64,000 bases of DNA from positions 20,312-84,311 of IMG/VR virus record IMGVR_UViG_3300047491_001293; one strand, given 5' to 3'. Position 1 is the stretch's first letter. Each line of letters begins with the position of its first letter. Source of the stretch: a virus. The translations under genes were made by a program, and so were the position numbers. The notes under the pieces were generated by a model. The model saw only the letters and a program-made list of their open reading frames with translations. It did not search any database and had not been told where the DNA came from. This document shows, piece by piece, positions 56,070-63,958 of the stretch.

Positions 56070-56597
56070 TTAAATTTGTTTAAGTTCCATTTTAAATTTT
56101 GGAAATTCATCGTAAGTCCTTCCAAGTAAAAGCCTTCCGTTTTTCTTTTTGTTCTTTCCTCCCCATTGCTTGAAGAAAAATGCAATGTTTTTTTCTTCAC
56201 ATTGGCTTTTGATCGACAAAACCCAAGATTCATGCATTGGTCTTGATTTGGCGCCACTTTCACCACCAACTATTACCCAGTCTATACCACTAAAATCAAC
56301 TACACCAAGATCCTCAAGCAATGGCTCTATGGACAGAAATTTCACGCTTGCTGGTGTGTTTTTCAAGTCTTCAATCCGTGGCAGACCATCATTCTGCCAA
56401 TGATATGATAAGCTACCTTTCCAAGTATCATGCCACAATTTATTTGTAGACCAATTTCTCGACACATAAACAAATGAATTAAATGGCAAAAAATTTACTG
56501 TCGTATATCTGACTATGTGATTTTTCCAATTACATGACAAATCAAAACTAATATTCCAGCATTCAATGTCAGAACAGTTATTTTGTTTTAATATCAT
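56070..56597 (-). CDS. small-repeat unit fused to DUF5131 C-terminal half
   Basis: 175 aa from the ATG at 56597; an in-frame start at 56615 also exists. Residues 1-30 ([25 protein letters not shown]) match the ORF at 57045-57251 (MILKQNNFSHIRCWN, FDLSHHWKNH). From about residue 65 it is clear DUF5131: [64 protein letters not shown]. The DUF5131 N-terminal half with its Cys motif is missing here and is found at 59333-59464. So this is a chimera, probably not an active DUF5131 enzyme. Confidence 0.7.
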
Positions 56598-56646
56598 CTT
56601 TTTTATACCATTCATCCAGACAAATAAACTTTACACGACTATCCAT
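56578..56646 (-). CDS. 22-codon ORF in the array
   Basis: Starts in a TGATG overlap with the stop of 56646-56828 and ends in TAA inside the next unit ([12 protein letters not shown]). Could be a leader that keeps ribosomes moving into the fused unit, or chance. Confidence 0.25.
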
Positions 56647-56828
56647 CACGCATGCCTCCTTTCGTAAGCATGAGCATTCATATAAAAAGCCGCCTCTTCC
56701 GCTGTAAGAAACAGCTTGCAATTATTGGATTCAGTAAAAATTCTAGCTTGCTTAATGTCTTTATAATTAGCACTTAACAACCGAAAATTGCTAAATTTAT
56801 CCCCAAAAACAAAATAACACCTAATCAT
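56646..56828 (-). CDS. hypothetical 60-aa protein inside the array
   Basis: MIRCYFVFGDKF... LFLTAEEAAFYMNAHAYERR: ordinary alpha/beta composition without the Trp/Cys excess, so it looks like a normal small protein embedded in the array. Confidence 0.5.
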   Translation of the reverse strand: MIRCYFVFGDKFSNFRLLSANYKDIKQARIFTESNNCKLFLTAEEAAFYMNAHAYERRHA

Positions 56829-56838
56829 GACTCAAATC

Positions 56839-57048
56839 CTAAACATATTGTGAAAAAAGTGAAAACCTACAGCCACTAGAAAACATTTTTGATCTCCATG
56901 CTATTTTTGCATTAAAAATACACCTGTCTCTTCTTGATGCCCAACAAATCGAACTAGGATGGCAATTATTCCAACATTCATCGTTGCGATATCCAAGCCT
57001 ATTCCAGCAAACCTTGTCACCATCGTTTGAAATGTTTTTAAAGATCAT
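56839..57048 (-). CDS. array ORF L, 69 aa, Cys/Trp-rich
   Basis: MIFKNISNDGDKVCWN, DECWNNCHP, SICWASRRDR; three CW pairs. Start overlaps the stop of ORF K as ATGA, 203 bases after K's start. Confidence 0.5.
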   Translation of the reverse strand: MIFKNISNDGDKVCWNRLGYRNDECWNNCHPSSICWASRRDRCIFNAKIAWRSKMFSSGCRFSLFSQYV

Positions 57049-57251
57049 ATGTTCCGCATCCAACAAAGTGACCAAAAATTCTTTTTATCCCAAAGTTCAG
57101 ACCAAGGTCCAGACCAAGACACGGACCAAGAAAAACAAATAGAAAAAGACAAATGCCAAGACCAAGCCATATGATTTTTCCAATGATGCGATAAATCAAA
57201 ATTATCATTCCAACATCGAATGTGAGAAAAATTATTTTGTTTTAATATCAT
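57045..57251 (-). CDS. array ORF K, 68 aa
   Basis: MILKQNNFSHIRCWN, FDLSHHWKNHMAW, then SWSGPWS from the hexanucleotide repeat, ending SLCWMRNI. Same length as ORF J and the same start and end patterns. About 80% DNA identity (by eye, 85 bases) to the first part of the 56070-56597 fusion. ATGA coupled on both sides. Confidence 0.6.
   Translation of the reverse strand: MILKQNNFSHIRCWNDNFDLSHHWKNHMAWSWHLSFSICFSWSVSWSGPWSELWDKKNFWSLCWMRNI
57088..57170 (+). repeat. degenerate GACCAA hexanucleotide repeat, block 1
   Basis: Plus strand runs of CAGACCAAGGTCCAGACCAAG and variants. On the minus strand it encodes the SWSGPWS-type segment of ORF K. Confidence 0.7.
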
Positions 57252-57454
57252 ATGTTTTTGTTCCAACAAAATGATTTACAACTGGACGCAGACAAAGACG
57301 AAGACCAAGGTCCAGACCAAGGTCCAGACCAAGACCAAGACCTAGACCAATACTTACACCAAGGCTTAGAACCAAAACCAGACCAAGATACAGACATAGA
57401 CCTAGACAAAGACCAACATTTTACAGAAGAAAAAATATTAGTTTTGATAATCAT
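57248..57454 (-). CDS. array ORF J, 68 aa
   Basis: MIIKTNIFSSVKCWS, then SWSGFGSKPWCKYWS and SWSGPWSGPWS from the hexanucleotide repeat, ending SFCWNKNI. A tandem duplicate of K by length, start and end. ATGA coupled. Confidence 0.6.
   Translation of the reverse strand: MIIKTNIFSSVKCWSLSRSMSVSWSGFGSKPWCKYWSRSWSWSGPWSGPWSSSLSASSCKSFCWNKNI
57290..57415 (+). repeat. degenerate GACCAA hexanucleotide repeat, block 2
   Basis: About 20 variants of [AG]ACC[AT]A in near-tandem order (CCAGACCAAGGTCCAGACCA...). In plus-strand frame it reads Asp/Gln repeats; in minus-strand frame it is the Trp/Ser part of ORF J. Confidence 0.75.
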
Positions 57455-57672
57455 ATTGCTTGATTCCAATGTTCAGATCGTGTGCTTGGAAAAGTCCAGC
57501 AAATACTTGCTATATCATTATCTCTACCAAACTTAGAAGTTCCAAAATATCCTGTATTTCCATCAAAATCATAACTGGACAGGCACATACCATCTCTCGT
57601 AACTGGATGTGTCTTAATCCAATCGTTTGCAAATATTTGCACCAATGATGAAGACCAGATTTTTAAAATCAT
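57451..57672 (-). CDS. array ORF I, 73 aa
   Basis: MILKIWSSSLVQIFAND ... GMCLSSYDFDGNTGYFG ... SICWTFPST ... SEHWNQAI. The CxSYxFDGxxTG segment recurs in ORF B. Start overlaps the 57669-57857 gene's stop as ATGA. Confidence 0.55.
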   Translation of the reverse strand: MILKIWSSSLVQIFANDWIKTHPVTRDGMCLSSYDFDGNTGYFGTSKFGRDNDIASICWTFPSTRSEHWNQAI

Positions 57673-57857
57673 GTCGTCTTCTTTATATTACTATCCCTTT
57701 GCTCCAAAAAGATTTTACTCACCCTTTCATGTCTTTTCCAAAATTGCTCACGATTGCCATAATATTCTCCGTTTTCTTTAACCATTTCTAAAGCACAAAT
57801 GATATGATCCAACTCTGACAAGGTTAATTTAATGTTCCACGATAATTTAATGGTCAT
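57669..57857 (-). CDS. hypothetical 62-aa helical protein
   Basis: Normal composition: LSWNIKLTLSELDHIICALE then NREQFWKRHERVSKIF. Looks like a real small phage protein. Overlaps 57847-58254 by 11 bases and is coupled to ORF I. Confidence 0.6.
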   Translation of the reverse strand: MTIKLSWNIKLTLSELDHIICALEMVKENGEYYGNREQFWKRHERVSKIFLEQRDSNIKKTT

Positions 57858-58254
57858 TTCTCCTATATCTTAAAATGTTGTCTAATTTGTGATCAAATGA
57901 TGAATGCCAGCTATTGTGTGCAATTTTGACTGCATTTGGCAAGTGATCATATTCATCTTTGTCCAAATCAACAATATCATCAGGATGGTTGATAGATCCA
58001 TTCAATTTACTACCCATTGCTATTCTGATGATTCCTTCAGGAGCAAAGCGTAATCTATCTGCTCCACGACTATGACCAATCCACACATCAGCAGATACAT
58101 CGGGAATAGTGAAAGGCAACCCTTCGTCAAAAAACACATGATATCCTCTTTTTCTCATGAATTTTTCTAAATTGGCATACAGGTTCCCTGCTATAACTCT
58201 GTCTGGATTTCCTTTTATAATGACGACAGTCTTACCGATTCCATCTATACTCAT
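57847..58254 (-). CDS. alpha/beta-hydrolase-like or Rossmann-like small protein
   Basis: 135 aa. KTVVIIKGNPDRVIAGN, GYHVFFDEGLPFTIPDVSADVWIGHSRGADRLRFAP; G-H-S-R-G is the nucleophile-elbow pentapeptide of alpha/beta hydrolases. The fold is too short for a full hydrolase. GGAGG upstream. A normal gene inside the array, probably once a neighbour or passenger. Confidence 0.6.
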   Translation of the reverse strand: MSIDGIGKTVVIIKGNPDRVIAGNLYANLEKFMRKRGYHVFFDEGLPFTIPDVSADVWIGHSRGADRLRFAPEGIIRIAMGSKLNGSINHPDDIVDLDKDEYDHLPNAVKIAHNSWHSSFDHKLDNILRYRRNDH

Positions 58255-58402
58255 ATATATTCATCCTCCAATTAGAACAACCAAACGGATTATTGCATAC
58301 TTTTTCTTTCCAATTCATTGACATTGTAATGCCACCATTAATTTTCCAAAAAATAGTAGGCCAATTATAAGATCGTGGATAGGAATGATTTTTATGTATC
58401 AT
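58232..58402 (-). CDS. array ORF F, 56 aa
   Basis: MIHKNHSYPRSYNWP, FWKINGG, MSMNWKEK, CSNWRMNI: Asn/Trp-rich. Overlaps the 58254 gene start by 23 bases. A 12-codon ORF (58404-58442, MIFKMFTH...) precedes it. Confidence 0.45.
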   Translation of the reverse strand: MIHKNHSYPRSYNWPTIFWKINGGITMSMNWKEKVCNNPFGCSNWRMNIYEYRWNR

Positions 58403-58438
58403 GTCATAACCCAGTGTCGTGAGTGAACATTTTGAAGA

Positions 58439-58651
58439 TCATATATTAAACTTCCAATTGCGTGATCGTGGATTATTACTTGCATTGATAGATTCAGCTT
58501 TGTCCTCACGCCAAACTCCAGATAAATACATATAATTCCAGCAAGGAAAACAAATTTCACCAAACCAAAGATCCTTAGCACTACCAAAAGTATTGGAACC
58601 ACCTTGATGGCTAAAAACTTCAATTATAGAATTGGGTGTTTTAATATTCAT
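58439..58651 (-). CDS. array ORF E, 70 aa
   Basis: MNIKTPNSIIEVFSHQGG ... EICFPCWNYMYLSGVW ... NPRSRNWKFNI. Ends in the W-x-x-x-I pattern, stop in ATATGA. ATGA-coupled to ORF D. Confidence 0.5.
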   Translation of the reverse strand: MNIKTPNSIIEVFSHQGGSNTFGSAKDLWFGEICFPCWNYMYLSGVWREDKAESINASNNPRSRNWKFNI

Positions 58652-58809
58652 GGTAACCTTTCAAAAATAAAACATAGCCGATCCCAGCTATAATCATCTG
58701 TTTTGTTTTGGCTCCAACATGCAGATGACCATATGTTATAGGCTGGAAAGCAAAAACATCTTCTGTAATTAGATTTAAAAATCTCAGACCTACAAGAGGT
58801 TGTTCTCAC
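58648..58809 (-). CDS. array ORF D, 53 aa, GTG start
   Basis: GTG start. CFCFPAYNIWSSACWS ... DDYSWDRLCF. Shares C-F-P-x-[YW]-N with ORF E. Confidence 0.4.
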   Translation of the reverse strand: MRTTSCRSEIFKSNYRRCFCFPAYNIWSSACWSQNKTDDYSWDRLCFIFERLP

Positions 58810-58814
58810 TTTGA

Positions 58815-58952
58815 CTACCTAAAAAGTAGAGAGCCATACATGTAAAAATCAAACAATACTGATCTTTTTGCCACAAACCACATCGTACTGCAATGCCATG
58901 GTCTGGCTAATTCATGGTGTTTCGACCAACAATGACTTTTATCAACTATCAT
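58815..58952 (-). CDS. array ORF C, 45 aa
   Basis: MIVDKSHCWSKHHELARPWH ... FDFYMYGSLLF. GGAG lies 10 bases upstream, the only array ORF with a visible ribosome site. Confidence 0.4.
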   Translation of the reverse strand: MIVDKSHCWSKHHELARPWHCSTMWFVAKRSVLFDFYMYGSLLFR

Positions 58953-58972
58953 CTAAAAAAATCTCCATAATT

Positions 58973-59122
58973 TCAGAATAGTACGCAGTAATATCCACCA
59001 AAAAGTCTAGTTCCATGCCATGACATAATATGACCACCCCAACATAAACAATGAGATTGACCTGTAAAATGTCCATCAAATGCATAGGAACATAACATCT
59101 TGTTTTTATTTGCAAATATCAT
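58973..59122 (-). CDS. array ORF B, 49 aa
   Basis: [21 protein letters not shown] ... CLCWGGHIMSWHG. CSYxFDGxxTG shared with ORF I. ATGA-coupled to ORF A. Confidence 0.45.
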   Translation of the reverse strand: MIFANKNKMLCSYAFDGHFTGQSHCLCWGGHIMSWHGTRLFGGYYCVLF

Positions 59123-59343
59123 GATTTTAAAATCCATGCCTTTCGCAACCATGCTTTGTTAAAATCAGAACTCATAAAATCATAAATATGATACGAACAA
59201 CAAAAACCAAATACCCCAAAATCGCAAGAATAACAATCCTTTATATTGCGACTGTGACAAAATTCATCAAAAAAACATCTTGAACTATCAAGATTATTTT
59301 GCCAAAAATCTGCATCAGAATAATAAAATGATTTAAACAACAT
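59119..59343 (-). CDS. array ORF A, 74 aa
   Basis: [21 protein letters not shown] ... [14 protein letters not shown] ... KAWILKS. The [13 protein letters not shown] part aligns with CWNxxFDLS of K and of the fusion. Its ATG lies within the last codons of the DUF5131 N-terminal fragment. Confidence 0.45.
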
Positions 59344-59464
59344 TTTGAAAACTCATGTTTTGTTGCCAATTAAGTGACCGGGCGCATCCAGGCGAAACCT
59401 TGGTGCAGCCACGAACTGGGTTCCAGGTTGCGCTGGTCCATTCAATTGTGCTTTTCTCAGACAT
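59333..59464 (-). CDS. DUF5131 (Gp37/Gp68) N-terminal fragment
   Basis: 43 aa with GGAG upstream. [20 protein letters not shown] (residues 2-21) then KVSPGCARS is the family's N-terminus (TWNPv.GCtkvSpGC.xCYAE), but the third Cys of C-x6-C-x2-C is replaced by Ser30 and the frame drifts into array-like sequence ([10 protein letters not shown]) and stops. Radical-SAM-like Fe-S binding would be lost. Its partner half is at 56070-56410. Confidence 0.8.
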
Positions 59465-59535
59465 AGTCAGTCTCCTTTTTTCTTGAATTTTCATTCAATT
59501 TAAGGTTACCGACATATTCCGATTTGTAAAATTGG

Positions 59536-60399
59536 CTAAATCAAATTGTTGGAGATGAGAGTTAGATTTTGCTCAGCCATGAGATTGTAGGTTGTCAAAA
59601 AGAAGGCATGTGGCATGCCACGATTCTCAAAGTGCGGAAGCATTTCCTTGCCACGCTTCAAGGTCTTGGCAAGAAGCTCCGCATCTTTGCAACCCAAAAG
59701 TATCTTGATTGTGTCAACAAGGTCATAGTATGAAAGCAACAGGGATTCATGTGTCTCCTGTGGATCCAAGAAGAAATACTTGAGTGTCCTTTCAACGGCG
59801 TCATTGCTAAAGATGGTTCCATCGGTGTGATGCAGCCAGCCAGCGCATATGAGGTCAACCTTCTCGGATTCCTTGAGGCCATAGTCATAGGCAACCTCCT
59901 GGGTGGTTGACATGAGGTGGGAGACAACCGTGGTGCCGCCAAACAATTTCTCGTCTCCATGGTATTCAATTGCCTTGTACTTGCTGAAATGTATGTCCTT
60001 GTTCAGCATCAGCTCTGGAATCATAATCCCACACTTGGAGCATCTGGCATCACCACCCATCCCATCATCACACCTCTGAAACTTGTGTGCGCAATTGGAT
60101 ATGTCCACAAGCCTAGAAGCCGCCGACATCTCCGACTGCCCAAGCGTTTCACCATAGCCAACAACCCACATCCTTGGCCGCTGCCACTTTCCAAACATGA
60201 AACTGTCTGGCATCTCTATGTTTTCGCTCACAGGATGGAAAACGGAAAACATATACCTCTCTGATGTTGGCTTTTTTGAAACCACCATTTTGTCTTTGAG
60301 GCATGAAATCTCTGGCTCAGAAATCTGTATCATGCATTCTTTTGGCCATTCATGAATGCAATCATAGAACTCGCCATTGTGCTGAACTCTAAATGACAT
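59536..60399 (-). CDS. hypothetical zinc-ribbon-like protein
   Basis: 287 aa from the ATG at 60399, which has the perfect ribosome site GGAGGTGAT lying within the end of the sigma gene. NCAHKFQRCDD ... ARCSKCG (about 105-130) contains C/H spacing of a zinc ribbon. No other match. Because it is coupled to the sigma-70-like gene it may have a transcription role. Confidence 0.6.
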   Translation of the reverse strand: MSFRVQHNGEFYDCIHEWPKECMIQISEPEISCLKDKMVVSKKPTSERYMFSVFHPVSENIEMPDSFMFGKWQRPRMWVVGYGETLGQSEMSAASRLVDISNCAHKFQRCDDGMGGDARCSKCGIMIPELMLNKDIHFSKYKAIEYHGDEKLFGGTTVVSHLMSTTQEVAYDYGLKESEKVDLICAGWLHHTDGTIFSNDAVERTLKYFFLDPQETHESLLLSYYDLVDTIKILLGCKDAELLAKTLKRGKEMLPHFENRGMPHAFFLTTYNLMAEQNLTLISNNLI

Positions 60400-61315
60400 C
60401 GAGATCACCTCCAGAACGCTTCAAGGTCTCACGCATGGCCCTAAGGAACTTTTCCTTGAGCTGGCGAACCCTCTCTTTTGTTATTCCAAGGGTCGAGCTT
60501 ATCTGTTCAAGGTTTTTCCTTTTTCTGCCGTTGATTCCATAGTATTCTTCAATGATCCTTATCTGGCGGGCTATGTCATTGCACTTGACCACCTTCTTGA
60601 CCATGCCTATGACCATGTTTATGAAATTTGCATTCTCACGCTGGTGCATCTCAATGCATTCAGAGCTATCCTCCGATTGTGGAAGATTGTCCTCGTAATT
60701 ATCATCAAGTGATATGTGTTTTCCACCCTTGATCCTCTTCATCTTAACCCCACGGAAGAAATTCTTTTTCAGCACCCATACACAATATGTGCAGAACTTG
60801 TTGCCTAGTGTGTAATTGAAATAGTCAACACTCTTAAGAACATCAAAGTAAGCATCGGAAAGTGAAAGATCTGGGGTTGCCTCGCCAGAGTGTCTGAAAT
60901 CACTCTTTAATATCATCCCAGCCAGCCTGAAGTTGCTGCTGGCAAGCTGATTCCTTATGGAGTAAATGTCGTTCAGCATGGATTCAACCTTTGCCACCAA
61001 TGACTTATCGGGTCGTGATGGCCTTATCTTCTTTCTAAGCCTTCCTGCCATAAACTTTAGGTAATTCATTTTCTTGAAAAGATGGTACTCTTGTTCCCTC
61101 GTGAGAAGTGGCTCCTCATAACAAGGCCTCATCGCCGGAAGCTTGTTTCTGACCCTTAGATTCTCAACCTTGCGTCGTTCTTGGTCATATCTATCCTTGT
61201 CTGGCATTTCTGCCAGTATTTTCCCTGCCAAGGATGGTCTGTCAAAGTCTGGATGGTGGAAATGCTTGAGCTTGCATGAAAGGATAGCGACGAAACTGCC
61301 AGGTGCTTTACCCAT
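60389..61315 (-). CDS. sigma-70 family RNA polymerase sigma factor
   Basis: 308 aa. LLTREQEYHLFKKMNYLKF (about 70-88) is region 1.2/2.1-like. IRNQLASSNFRLAG (about 118-131), DLSLSDAYFDVLKSVDYFNYTLGNKFCTYCVWVLKKNFF (about 147-185) is region 2.2-2.4. NLEQISSTLGITKERVRQLKEKFLRAM (about 268-294) is the region 4.2 HTH. The best-defined regulator in the window. It would bind host RNA polymerase and direct it to phage promoters, perhaps those carrying TATAAATT/TATAAATA. Has such an element itself at 61347-61361. Confidence 0.85.
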   Translation of the reverse strand: MGKAPGSFVAILSCKLKHFHHPDFDRPSLAGKILAEMPDKDRYDQERRKVENLRVRNKLPAMRPCYEEPLLTREQEYHLFKKMNYLKFMAGRLRKKIRPSRPDKSLVAKVESMLNDIYSIRNQLASSNFRLAGMILKSDFRHSGEATPDLSLSDAYFDVLKSVDYFNYTLGNKFCTYCVWVLKKNFFRGVKMKRIKGGKHISLDDNYEDNLPQSEDSSECIEMHQRENANFINMVIGMVKKVVKCNDIARQIRIIEEYYGINGRKRKNLEQISSTLGITKERVRQLKEKFLRAMRETLKRSGGDLDVI

Positions 61316-61346: not shown

Positions 61347-61361
61347 AGTTTAATTTATAAA
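61347..61361 (-). promoter_or_regulatory. late-promoter-like 15-mer TTTATAAATTAAACT
   Basis: Minus strand, 32 bases before the sigma-70-like gene's ATG; identical to 30106-30120. Confidence 0.55.
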
Positions 61362-61399
61362 ATAAATTATTTCAATGCCAATATATGTACATTCATTCA

Positions 61400-61570
61400 T
61401 TAATTTGGTGGGCCACCCCAGTAGAAGTAACTGTACTGGTTGGTGTCATGCACATAGGACCATATATATGAATCGTTCCACTCAGATAGACCTCTGAAGT
61501 CCTTGAATGAGTATGAGAACTGCTGGTTAATCCATGTGGATTCTTGCAAGTGATGAATTTTGAAAATCAT
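61400..61570 (-). CDS. small aromatic-rich MIFK protein, relative of the array ORFs
   Basis: 56 aa: MIFKIHHLQESTWINQQFSY, then FKDFRGLSEWNDSYIWSYV, ending QYSYFYWGGPPN. Rich in Trp/Tyr/Phe/Asn/Ser with the MIFK start and a W-x-N-Q-x-F-x-[YL]-S element like CWNxxFDLS of the array. Codon use is like neighbouring genes, and it stands alone 10 bases after the 61581-61913 gene, so it may be the intact form of the family. No ribosome site visible. Confidence 0.6.
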   Translation of the reverse strand: MIFKIHHLQESTWINQQFSYSFKDFRGLSEWNDSYIWSYVHDTNQYSYFYWGGPPN

Positions 61571-61580
61571 TTGCGACTAT

Positions 61581-61913
61581 TTAGCCAAGGTCTTCAAGGC
61601 TGCCCCTGATCTTTTCACGGACAATCTCCGCCGATTTCTCAAGGATTTGCACGGATAAGGCCGGTGGTATGTTGAAGCAGTCAACCAGGATCCCGCCCTC
61701 TACCATCTTGACAAGGATCACTGGCATGTTATCACGCTTGTTGATCTCATCGCATAGCTGGTCGGTGGTTGCGAGCTCAAGGTATTCTGGGAGGCTCTTG
61801 TTGACAACGGAATTGAGCTTCTGAACCTCAAGTGTAAGGCTTGTGATTAACAGATATGATATGGAAATGACAAGCAGCAGAAAGCAAACCAGGAGGACAA
61901 ACACTGCGTCCAC
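61581..61913 (-). CDS. single-span membrane protein
   Basis: 110 aa from a GTG at 61913, placed directly after the stop of the GGCT gene with GAGG upstream. Transmembrane segment at about 3-26 (AVFVLLVCFLLLVISISYLL), then a soluble domain (DQLCDEINKRDNMPVILVKM ... VDCFNIPPAL). A TTG start at 61943 is less likely. No family recognised. Confidence 0.6.
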   Translation of the reverse strand: MDAVFVLLVCFLLLVISISYLLITSLTLEVQKLNSVVNKSLPEYLELATTDQLCDEINKRDNMPVILVKMVEGGILVDCFNIPPALSVQILEKSAEIVREKIRGSLEDLG

Positions 61914-61915
61914 AG

Positions 61916-62332
61916 TCACCTCGATGACCAGAAGATGCCACAATCCTTTTTGTCAGACACGCTCCTGAGATATATGTATGCCAACGCAACCTTCCTTTGG
62001 AGCGCTTGAAAAGTACTGCTATATAGGGGCAGAGCGACTATATTGACCTCATCAAGGATTATCTCCTCCCTGGAATAAAGGCCGTGCTCAACACCCTCTA
62101 TCTGGTCAAGCTGCTGCATGCACTCATCGCTGACCTCGTACAGCTCCCCATAAACACGCTTTCCGGCAGCCTTGTCAGGTGTGGCATGCACAAGACCTGG
62201 ATAGCCCCCAAGGTTGAACATGGCGAATTTGCCATCAGTTCGTCCCACCCCAAGATATTTCTGGTCTGAAAGCGCAAGCTCACGGCTATGACCCTGCTTG
62301 AGTGTGCCATAAACAAATAAAAGATTTCCCAT
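61916..62332 (-). CDS. gamma-glutamylcyclotransferase (GGCT/AIG2-like)
   Basis: 138 aa. FVYGTLKQGHSRELAL (6-21) is the G-T-L/K-x-G substrate loop; GGYPGLVHATPDKAAGKRVYGELYEVSDECMQQLDQIEGVE supplies the catalytic Glu region (E-x-Y-x-v...LD..EG). Would cyclise gamma-glutamyl amines to 5-oxoproline; in phages the substrate is unknown, perhaps reversing a gamma-glutamyl modification. Confidence 0.85.
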   Translation of the reverse strand: MGNLLFVYGTLKQGHSRELALSDQKYLGVGRTDGKFAMFNLGGYPGLVHATPDKAAGKRVYGELYEVSDECMQQLDQIEGVEHGLYSREEIILDEVNIVALPLYSSTFQALQRKVALAYIYLRSVSDKKDCGIFWSSR

Positions 62333-62339
62333 AACAACC

Positions 62340-62873
62340 TCATATCTTAGTCACACTATAATCATAAAGTGAGATGCACATGTTTATCAATAGGTTAAGG
62401 TAATTTGCGTCCGGCATGGCAAGTCTTTCACGGATCAGCCTAGCGTGAATCATGAATATTTTTCCCCAGAAATCACCATGCGCAACCATTGTCTGCACCG
62501 CAATTATATCACGATTTGAATTCATTAGCTCCTTGGCTACAAGCGCCCGCATCTTAAGGTTGACAAGGGATAGAACTATAGTGTCAACCTCAAGGTTATT
62601 CAGCGAAGAAACATACACAGTCTTTCCAGACGGTTTCAAGTCCCAGATTTTTGCGCCATTTCCCACAATGGCCATGTAATCTGAATGCAGGCTGTTCATG
62701 ATCGTGATAATGTCGCCGCTGAAAAAACTGTACTTCTCCGTCAATCCCTTGCGGCTGCTTTCCAAGCCATGCCTTGAAACCATGGCGCACTTCCACCCAG
62801 ACTCGACCGCATCATGGAGTGAGACCTCAAGTCCATATTCAACTGGTGAATCAATGTTGAAAAATGCATTCAT
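62340..62873 (-). CDS. hypothetical protein coupled to ClpX
   Basis: 177 aa from the ATG at 62873, in an ATGA overlap with the stop of clpX. Alternating strands and helices ([54 protein letters not shown]) suggest a Rossmann-like fold. The longer frame to 62945 is an overlap artefact. Could be a ClpX adaptor by position. Confidence 0.6.
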
Positions 62874-63958
62874 GCTGCTGTGTCTCGATTGGTGGTCTTG
62901 TCTACATACTGCTTGTCGACCATGATTTTCTTTCCAAGTTCGCAAGCCTCAAACATCAAATCGTTCATCACCGTCTCAACAACGGATCTGAGAGCCCTTG
63001 CGCCAGTTCCCTTGGTAAAGGCTATTTTTGCCATCTGGCGTATCGCATCATCACTAAATTGGAGATCAACATCCTCAAGAAACATGAGTTTTTGATACTG
63101 GCGTAAAAGTGCGTTTTTTGGCTCGATGAGGATCTTGCACAATGCATCCTCCGTCATGGGATGCAAAGAAACCTGAACTGGAACCCTGCCTATAAATTCC
63201 GGTATCATGCCAAACTCAATCAAGTCCTCTCCTGTTATGTTGTTAAGTATCTCGACCTCATCAAATTCTTTTCTGCCTGATCCAATGAACCCTATCGATG
63301 ATTCCCCGGACTGTTTGCGGAGCCTATTGGATACAATCTTGTCTATGCCAACGAATGTTCCACCACAGATAAAAAGTATGTTGGTTGTGTCAACAGGAAT
63401 AAAGCTCTGCTCTGGGTGCTTTCTGCCGCCCTTTGGAGGAACATTGCTGACTGTTCCATCAATCATCTTCAAAAGCGCTTGCTGCACACCCTCGCCACTC
63501 ACATCACGGCTGATTGAAACATTGTTTCCAGACTTTGCAATCTTGTCCACCTCATCAATGTACACAATCCCGTGTTGAGCTTTGACAACATTAAATTCTG
63601 ACTCGACCAAAAGTTTTGTAAGAAGATTCTCTACATCTTCCCCAACATAACCAGCCTGCGTCAAGACTGTTGCGTCACCAATCGCAAACGGAACATCAAG
63701 AAATTCAGCCAGGCTTTTTGCCAGAAGTGTCTTACCACAGCCAGTCGGCCCAACCATGATGATGTTCGATTTCTCAATGACAACATCTTGGAGATTCTTG
63801 GGAAATGCCGAGTTATTTGCATCATTGATTCGCTTATGATGGTTGCATATTGCCACAGCAAGCCTTTTCTTGGCTGTTTCTTGGCCAATAACATACTGGT
63901 CCAGATGTGCCACAACAGTCCGTGGGCTTATGGAAATCTTTGTTACAGTCGTTTGCAT
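62870..63958 (-). CDS. clpX: ClpX-like AAA+ unfoldase without zinc domain
   Basis: 362 aa. Walker [17 protein letters not shown] (about 66-81), pore loop [15 protein letters not shown] (about 103-117), Walker [13 protein letters not shown] (about 130-141), [22 protein letters not shown], and [19 protein letters not shown] (sensor 2). The host zinc-binding domain (about 60 aa) is absent. Probably a phage unfoldase for a phage protease or for remodelling host proteins. Confidence 0.9.

Follow-up and report, generated by a model that had tools for sequence, protein, structure and literature searches.

The 56-codon ORF (ORF56) that lies just upstream of a sigma factor gene in this phage is very probably a real gene, and comparison with related genomes makes its acquisition in a variable slot the best reading. 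On balance we favour the view that the phage has recently gained ORF56 as a genuine accessory gene, placed between a ClpX/GGACT/membrane-protein string and the sigma promoter, with a probably host-directed product and an origin in the gene pool of arrays of small Trp-rich ORFs. Its resemblance to those array ORFs is real as style and is not demonstrable as homology.

The window is the whole stretch of DNA that was analysed, 64,000 nucleotides that make up bases 20312-84311 of the record of an uncultured virus (84,311 bp in all). Its genes for a ClpX-like protein, a sigma factor and structural proteins suggest a large phage. Along the minus strand the genes run from a ClpX-like ATPase through a 201-aa ORF, GGACT, a 120-aa protein, ORF56 and the sigma factor to a 290-aa protein. 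ORF56 begins 10 nt past the stop codon (TAA) of the upstream gene and ends 84 nt short of the sigma-factor start. The features of this region are as follows.

62870..63958, minus strand: ClpX-like AAA+ ATPase in the gene string upstream of ORF56 (PF07724, 6e-29; relatives L007-L026)
61916..62332, minus strand: gamma-glutamyl cyclotransferase-like protein (GGACT) of the same gene string (PF06094, 1.5e-18)
61581..61943, minus strand: 120-aa protein with an N-terminal hydrophobic stretch, the upstream neighbour (55-56% identity in L007/L019, where the next gene is sigma)
61568..61577, minus strand: left edge of the insertion, GTCGCAAATG, matching the empty site GTTGCAAATG of L019 in a direct comparison and including the ORF56 start codon
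61400..61570, minus strand: ORF56, ATG...TAA, 56 aa, MIFKIHHLQESTWINQQFSYSFKDFRGLSEWNDSYIWSYVHDTNQYSYFYWGGPPN; codon score within that of real genes, probable relative at G020:10040-10207
61347..61375, minus strand: promoter-like site of the sigma gene, TTGAAA-N17-TAAACT, conserved and intact downstream of the insertion
60389..61315, minus strand: phage sigma factor, 308 aa, the downstream neighbour (phrog_351, 2.1e-9; Sigma70_r4, 4.4e-6; 51% identical in L007 and L019)

The sequence-only reading had described a stand-alone small gene next to a sigma factor gene, with the style of the array ORFs and normal local codon use, and in these respects it was borne out: the ORF is there, the neighbour has the family matches listed above and both elements of the style are rare. 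ORF56 starts with MIFK, and an MI[FLIV]K start is found in 3 of 1675 ORFs of at least 120 aa. The protein is rich in Trp, Tyr, Phe and Ser, contains no Cys and ends in YFYWGGPPN. W, Y, F and H make up 32% of its residues, which is equalled by one of 1764 56-aa segments of longer genes, so that ORF56 encodes an odd protein, yet a real one. Since the chance of an ATG-initiated ORF of this length in a random 265-nt stretch is about 5%, length by itself is weak evidence; the strong evidence comes from codon use. When 52 genes of the window serve as the training set for a codon model, ORF56 scores 0.145 bits per codon, corresponding to the 32nd percentile of equal-length segments of real genes and exceeding 99.4% of spurious ORFs (n = 162). 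When amino-acid composition was removed and synonymous choice alone was scored, it exceeded all 162 of them. Array ORFs, by the same model, score like non-coding sequence.

Syntenic phages were located through relatives of the ClpX neighbour; a scan with the sigma factor found no relatives. The two nearest syntenic contigs, L007 and L019, have the same gene order as the window, with a gap between the 120-aa gene and the sigma gene of 73 and 77 nt, respectively, compared with 265 nt in the window. ORF56 therefore appears as an insertion of about 190 nt upstream of the sigma promoter, nearly all of it occupied by the ORF itself (171 nt) and ending before the promoter. ORF56 is thus absent from syntenic relatives in which the flanks are kept, the close empty site being known from two genomes only, in both of which loss is also possible. 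In L010, a more distant relative, the slot is occupied by a glycosyltransferase-like gene (a name read from its sequence and not from a family search), which indicates that the slot is variable. The pattern TTGMAA-N17-TAAAMT precedes the sigma gene in all three genomes (the window, L007 and L019), reading TTGCAA-N17-TAAACT in L007 and with a TAAAAT variant in L019. The AT-rich core of this promoter, in the form shared by the relatives, has an exact match in the window, where 0.22 matches with at most three mismatches are expected by chance. No promoter or terminator belonging to ORF56 itself was found, and tRNA and Rfam scans of the window gave nothing.

These observations suggest how ORF56 might have been acquired and expressed. 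It lies after the last gene of the ClpX/GGACT/membrane-protein string and before the sigma-factor promoter, and was probably inserted there. Since a stop codon lies 10 nt upstream and no clear Shine-Dalgarno sequence precedes the ATG, ORF56 is most likely translated by termination-reinitiation, as the final cistron of the string that precedes it. Small phage genes that are specific to one lineage and occupy variable slots usually have host-directed products, and judging by this type of gene the product is likely to be a small host-directed protein, for example a takeover or counter-defence factor. Like the morons and host-takeover genes of tailed phages, ORF56 is a small ORFan in a variable slot with conserved flanks and is absent in near relatives; it differs from them in that no promoter or terminator of its own and no match to a described family could be found. 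Comparison with Pfam, PHROGs, NCBIfam, PADLOC and PDB gave no significant match, and so no function can be transferred to ORF56. DUF6709 (0.13) and phrog_22876 (0.2) were rejected as families for ORF56, their scores being at chance level. Nothing was found by tblastn against phage isolates with E up to 10, in 18 related contigs, or with peptide patterns, used alone and as a two-member alignment, in viral contigs and genome contigs. Taken alone, ORF56 adds one to the lineage-specific small genes of phages. Its clean empty site and the intact promoter nevertheless make it well placed to show how such genes are gained.

The arrays to which ORF56 had been likened occur in six uncultured phage contigs and consist of ORFs of 40-85 aa, rich in Trp, Ser and Cys, that start with MI[LIF]K and whose stop and start codons overlap as ATGA. 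They are located as follows.

56391..59376 of the window, minus strand: array of coupled small ORFs rich in Trp, Cys and Ser, accompanied by a few ordinary small genes and lying within a broken DUF5131 gene
G004: L010 11093-11512 and L162 1762-1983
G019: L116 934-2109 and L161 1059-1772
G020: L189 6852-14865
G022: L172 2557-8835
G023: L175 3236-6549

One candidate relative of ORF56 was spotted while the arrays of other phages were being read. This is G020:10040-10207 (IMGVR 3300032288_006545), a 55-aa ORF, MIFTHARHSSELNMCEFS...IWSYAAPKRYRYFNWKFNETN, which is identical to ORF56 at 19 of 52 positions (37%) in a nearly full-length alignment. The pair reaches a Smith-Waterman score of 70, whereas shuffled sequences average 26.4 (sd 5.3), and when all 64 array ORFs tried are taken into account, 2 of 4000 shuffles were as good. 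In a set of 35,312 ORFs the match has E = 0.002 with phmmer and E = 0.34 with composition-adjusted blastp. The two ORFs are alike in length, in the MIF start and in standing alone without ATGA chaining, and they share co-linear FSxxF, W-x4-IWSY and YxYFxW residues. The G020 ORF differs in having a Shine-Dalgarno-like AAGGAA of its own and a borderline codon score. Its neighbours are a 75-aa ORF on one side and a HAD-hydrolase gene on the other, and array ORFs lie in both directions. On this sequence evidence the homology of the two ORFs is probable, not certain.

Kinship of ORF56 with the array ORFs themselves was examined using array ORFs from the window and the five other contigs (G004, G019, G020, G022 and G023). 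A comparison of separately built profiles had been put forward as a check on the proposed relationship, and it turned out negative. Only the four columns of the MIFK/MILK start align between the ORF56 profile and two array profiles, with hhalign probabilities of 1.3% and 0.9%, and 9 of 150 column-shuffled controls were as good. A profile search fared no better, as an HMM of 56 array ORFs gives ORF56 10.2 bits, a score that 149 of 2000 shuffles equal. If the G020 match is set aside, the best score of ORF56 against the other 63 array ORFs is 45, which half of the shuffles reach. As a positive control, the array ORF at window 57248-57454 scores 154 against G023, where the null maximum is 102; several array ORFs of different phages match each other far beyond shuffles in this way, showing that the method can detect kinship. 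Several more degenerate array ORFs of the window, however, fail the same shuffle test, and the failure of ORF56 is therefore no proof of unrelatedness. The AlphaFold models (mean pLDDT 54 for ORF56 and 48 for one array ORF) are too poor for a comparison of folds.

The array ORFs of all six contigs share with ORF56 the MIFK-type start, an aromatic-rich composition, a similar length and the phage setting. In contrast to them, ORF56 lacks the CW/CFGF core, the W-x-x-x-I/Q C-terminal end, the TGGTCT repeats and ATGA coupling, and has normal codon use. All that still speaks for kinship is the start motif, together with the composition and the surroundings of the one relative. The suggestion that ORF56 may represent the parental family is consequently unsupported, because the profiles align at MIFK only and no parent-child direction can be demonstrated. 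Nor does ORF56 let a function be assigned to the arrays, as had been anticipated, given that there is no detectable kinship beyond the first residues and no database match.

It is nevertheless conceivable, if doubtful, that ORF56 truly belongs to the array family, perhaps as its parent, and has become adapted to the codon use of the phage. Just as doubtful is the view that it represents, in single copy and with adapted codons, an undescribed class of small phage proteins, aromatic- and Trp-rich, whose genes otherwise form translationally chained, repeat-shuffled arrays in uncultured large phages. The start motif, rare in long ORFs and usual in array ORFs, speaks for membership, as do the extreme aromatic content and the position of the probable relative between array ORFs in G020. 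That relative, however, fares no better than chance when other array ORFs are compared with it (68 of 400 shuffles), and the second-best array match of ORF56 is at chance level. The negative profile comparison, an array-HMM score no higher than that of shuffles and the want of a demonstrable parent-child direction weigh in the same sense. Furthermore, the TGG-N11-ATG junction of the arrays chains neither ORF56 nor the G020 ORF; ORF56 follows a TAA by 10 nt and there is no TGG at that point. Membership of the array class would raise the importance of ORF56, making it a tractable, non-repetitive representative of a class whose ORFs are hard to study because they are so repetitive and divergent.

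Two further readings dispense with a functional protein product of this kind. The codon and synonymous-codon scores, which resemble those of real genes, make it improbable that ORF56 is an untranslated chance ORF and that the insertion, lying ahead of the sigma promoter, serves only as a spacer or as regulatory DNA. That reading would account for the very odd amino-acid composition and the missing Shine-Dalgarno sequence, and the 5% frequency of such ORFs gives it some room; against this, the insertion is close to the length of the ORF, and the G020 phage has an ORF of similar sequence and the same length. Less probable still is a leader peptide whose Trp/Tyr-rich reading would control expression of the sigma factor by attenuation. 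There are indeed four Trp and six Tyr codons just upstream of the sigma gene and on the same strand, but the Trp codons do not form a consecutive run, ORF56 is far longer than classical leader peptides, the gap has no terminator-like hairpin on this strand and the sigma gene's own promoter-like site sits downstream of ORF56. Moreover, ORF56 is missing from L007 and L019, both of which keep the sigma gene and its promoter, and the leader-peptide reading was rejected on these empty sites.

With regard to the origin of the accessory gene that we favour, ORF56 would form a very small family with a second probable member that sits among the array ORFs of another phage. This position suggests that ORF56 draws on the gene pool of the arrays, without detectable membership of the array family itself, and it looks like an accessory gene from that same pool.

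The arrays are a more interesting and more unusual object than ORF56. They appear to be an undescribed kind of gene arrangement: a literature search on tandem Trp-rich small ORFs in phages found nothing on such ORFs, and tblastn with array ORFs in 50,697 phage records gave chance-level matches at best. In 27 of 59 units with an ATGA start, a TGG codon, usually within TGGA or TGGG, has its end exactly 11 nt upstream of the following ATG, and the junction pattern TGG-N9-ATATGATHHTHAAAA occurs three times in the window against 0.00 expected. It seems probable from these patterns that the conserved C-terminal Trp codon of one array unit doubles as the Shine-Dalgarno sequence of the next, chaining translation. 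In the CFGF-type array ORFs (L116 934-2109, L161, L162 and L010) the first 24 codons are conserved, with pN/pS of 0.17/0.30, which suggests that the start is under selection on the protein; past codon 24 there is a middle region of TGGTCT-like hexamer repeats, variable in number.

The gene broken by the window array, DUF5131 (PF07505), spans 56070-59494 on the minus strand. Its N-terminal piece (59333-59494) covers profile positions 1-26, and its C-terminal piece, an in-frame fusion with the last array ORF, covers positions 127-243; in place of the middle stands the array of about 3 kb, with a G+C content of 34% compared with 43%. In L007 and L019 this entire block, which lies between the 290-aa and 295-aa genes, is missing. 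A parallel is seen at L010 11071-11199, where the G004 array truncates an apparent metallophosphoesterase gene (identified by motif only) just after its MKPHLRLIGDVHGG start. Within the window array, a 135-aa gene (57847-58254, minus strand) has relatives in the large phages PhiPA3 (gp373), FLC9 and D6, near which no array ORFs were seen. A 60-aa ordinary gene of the same array (56646-56828, minus strand) is 45% identical to L172 5687-5899 (minus strand) in the G022 array, indicating that ordinary small genes travel with the arrays.
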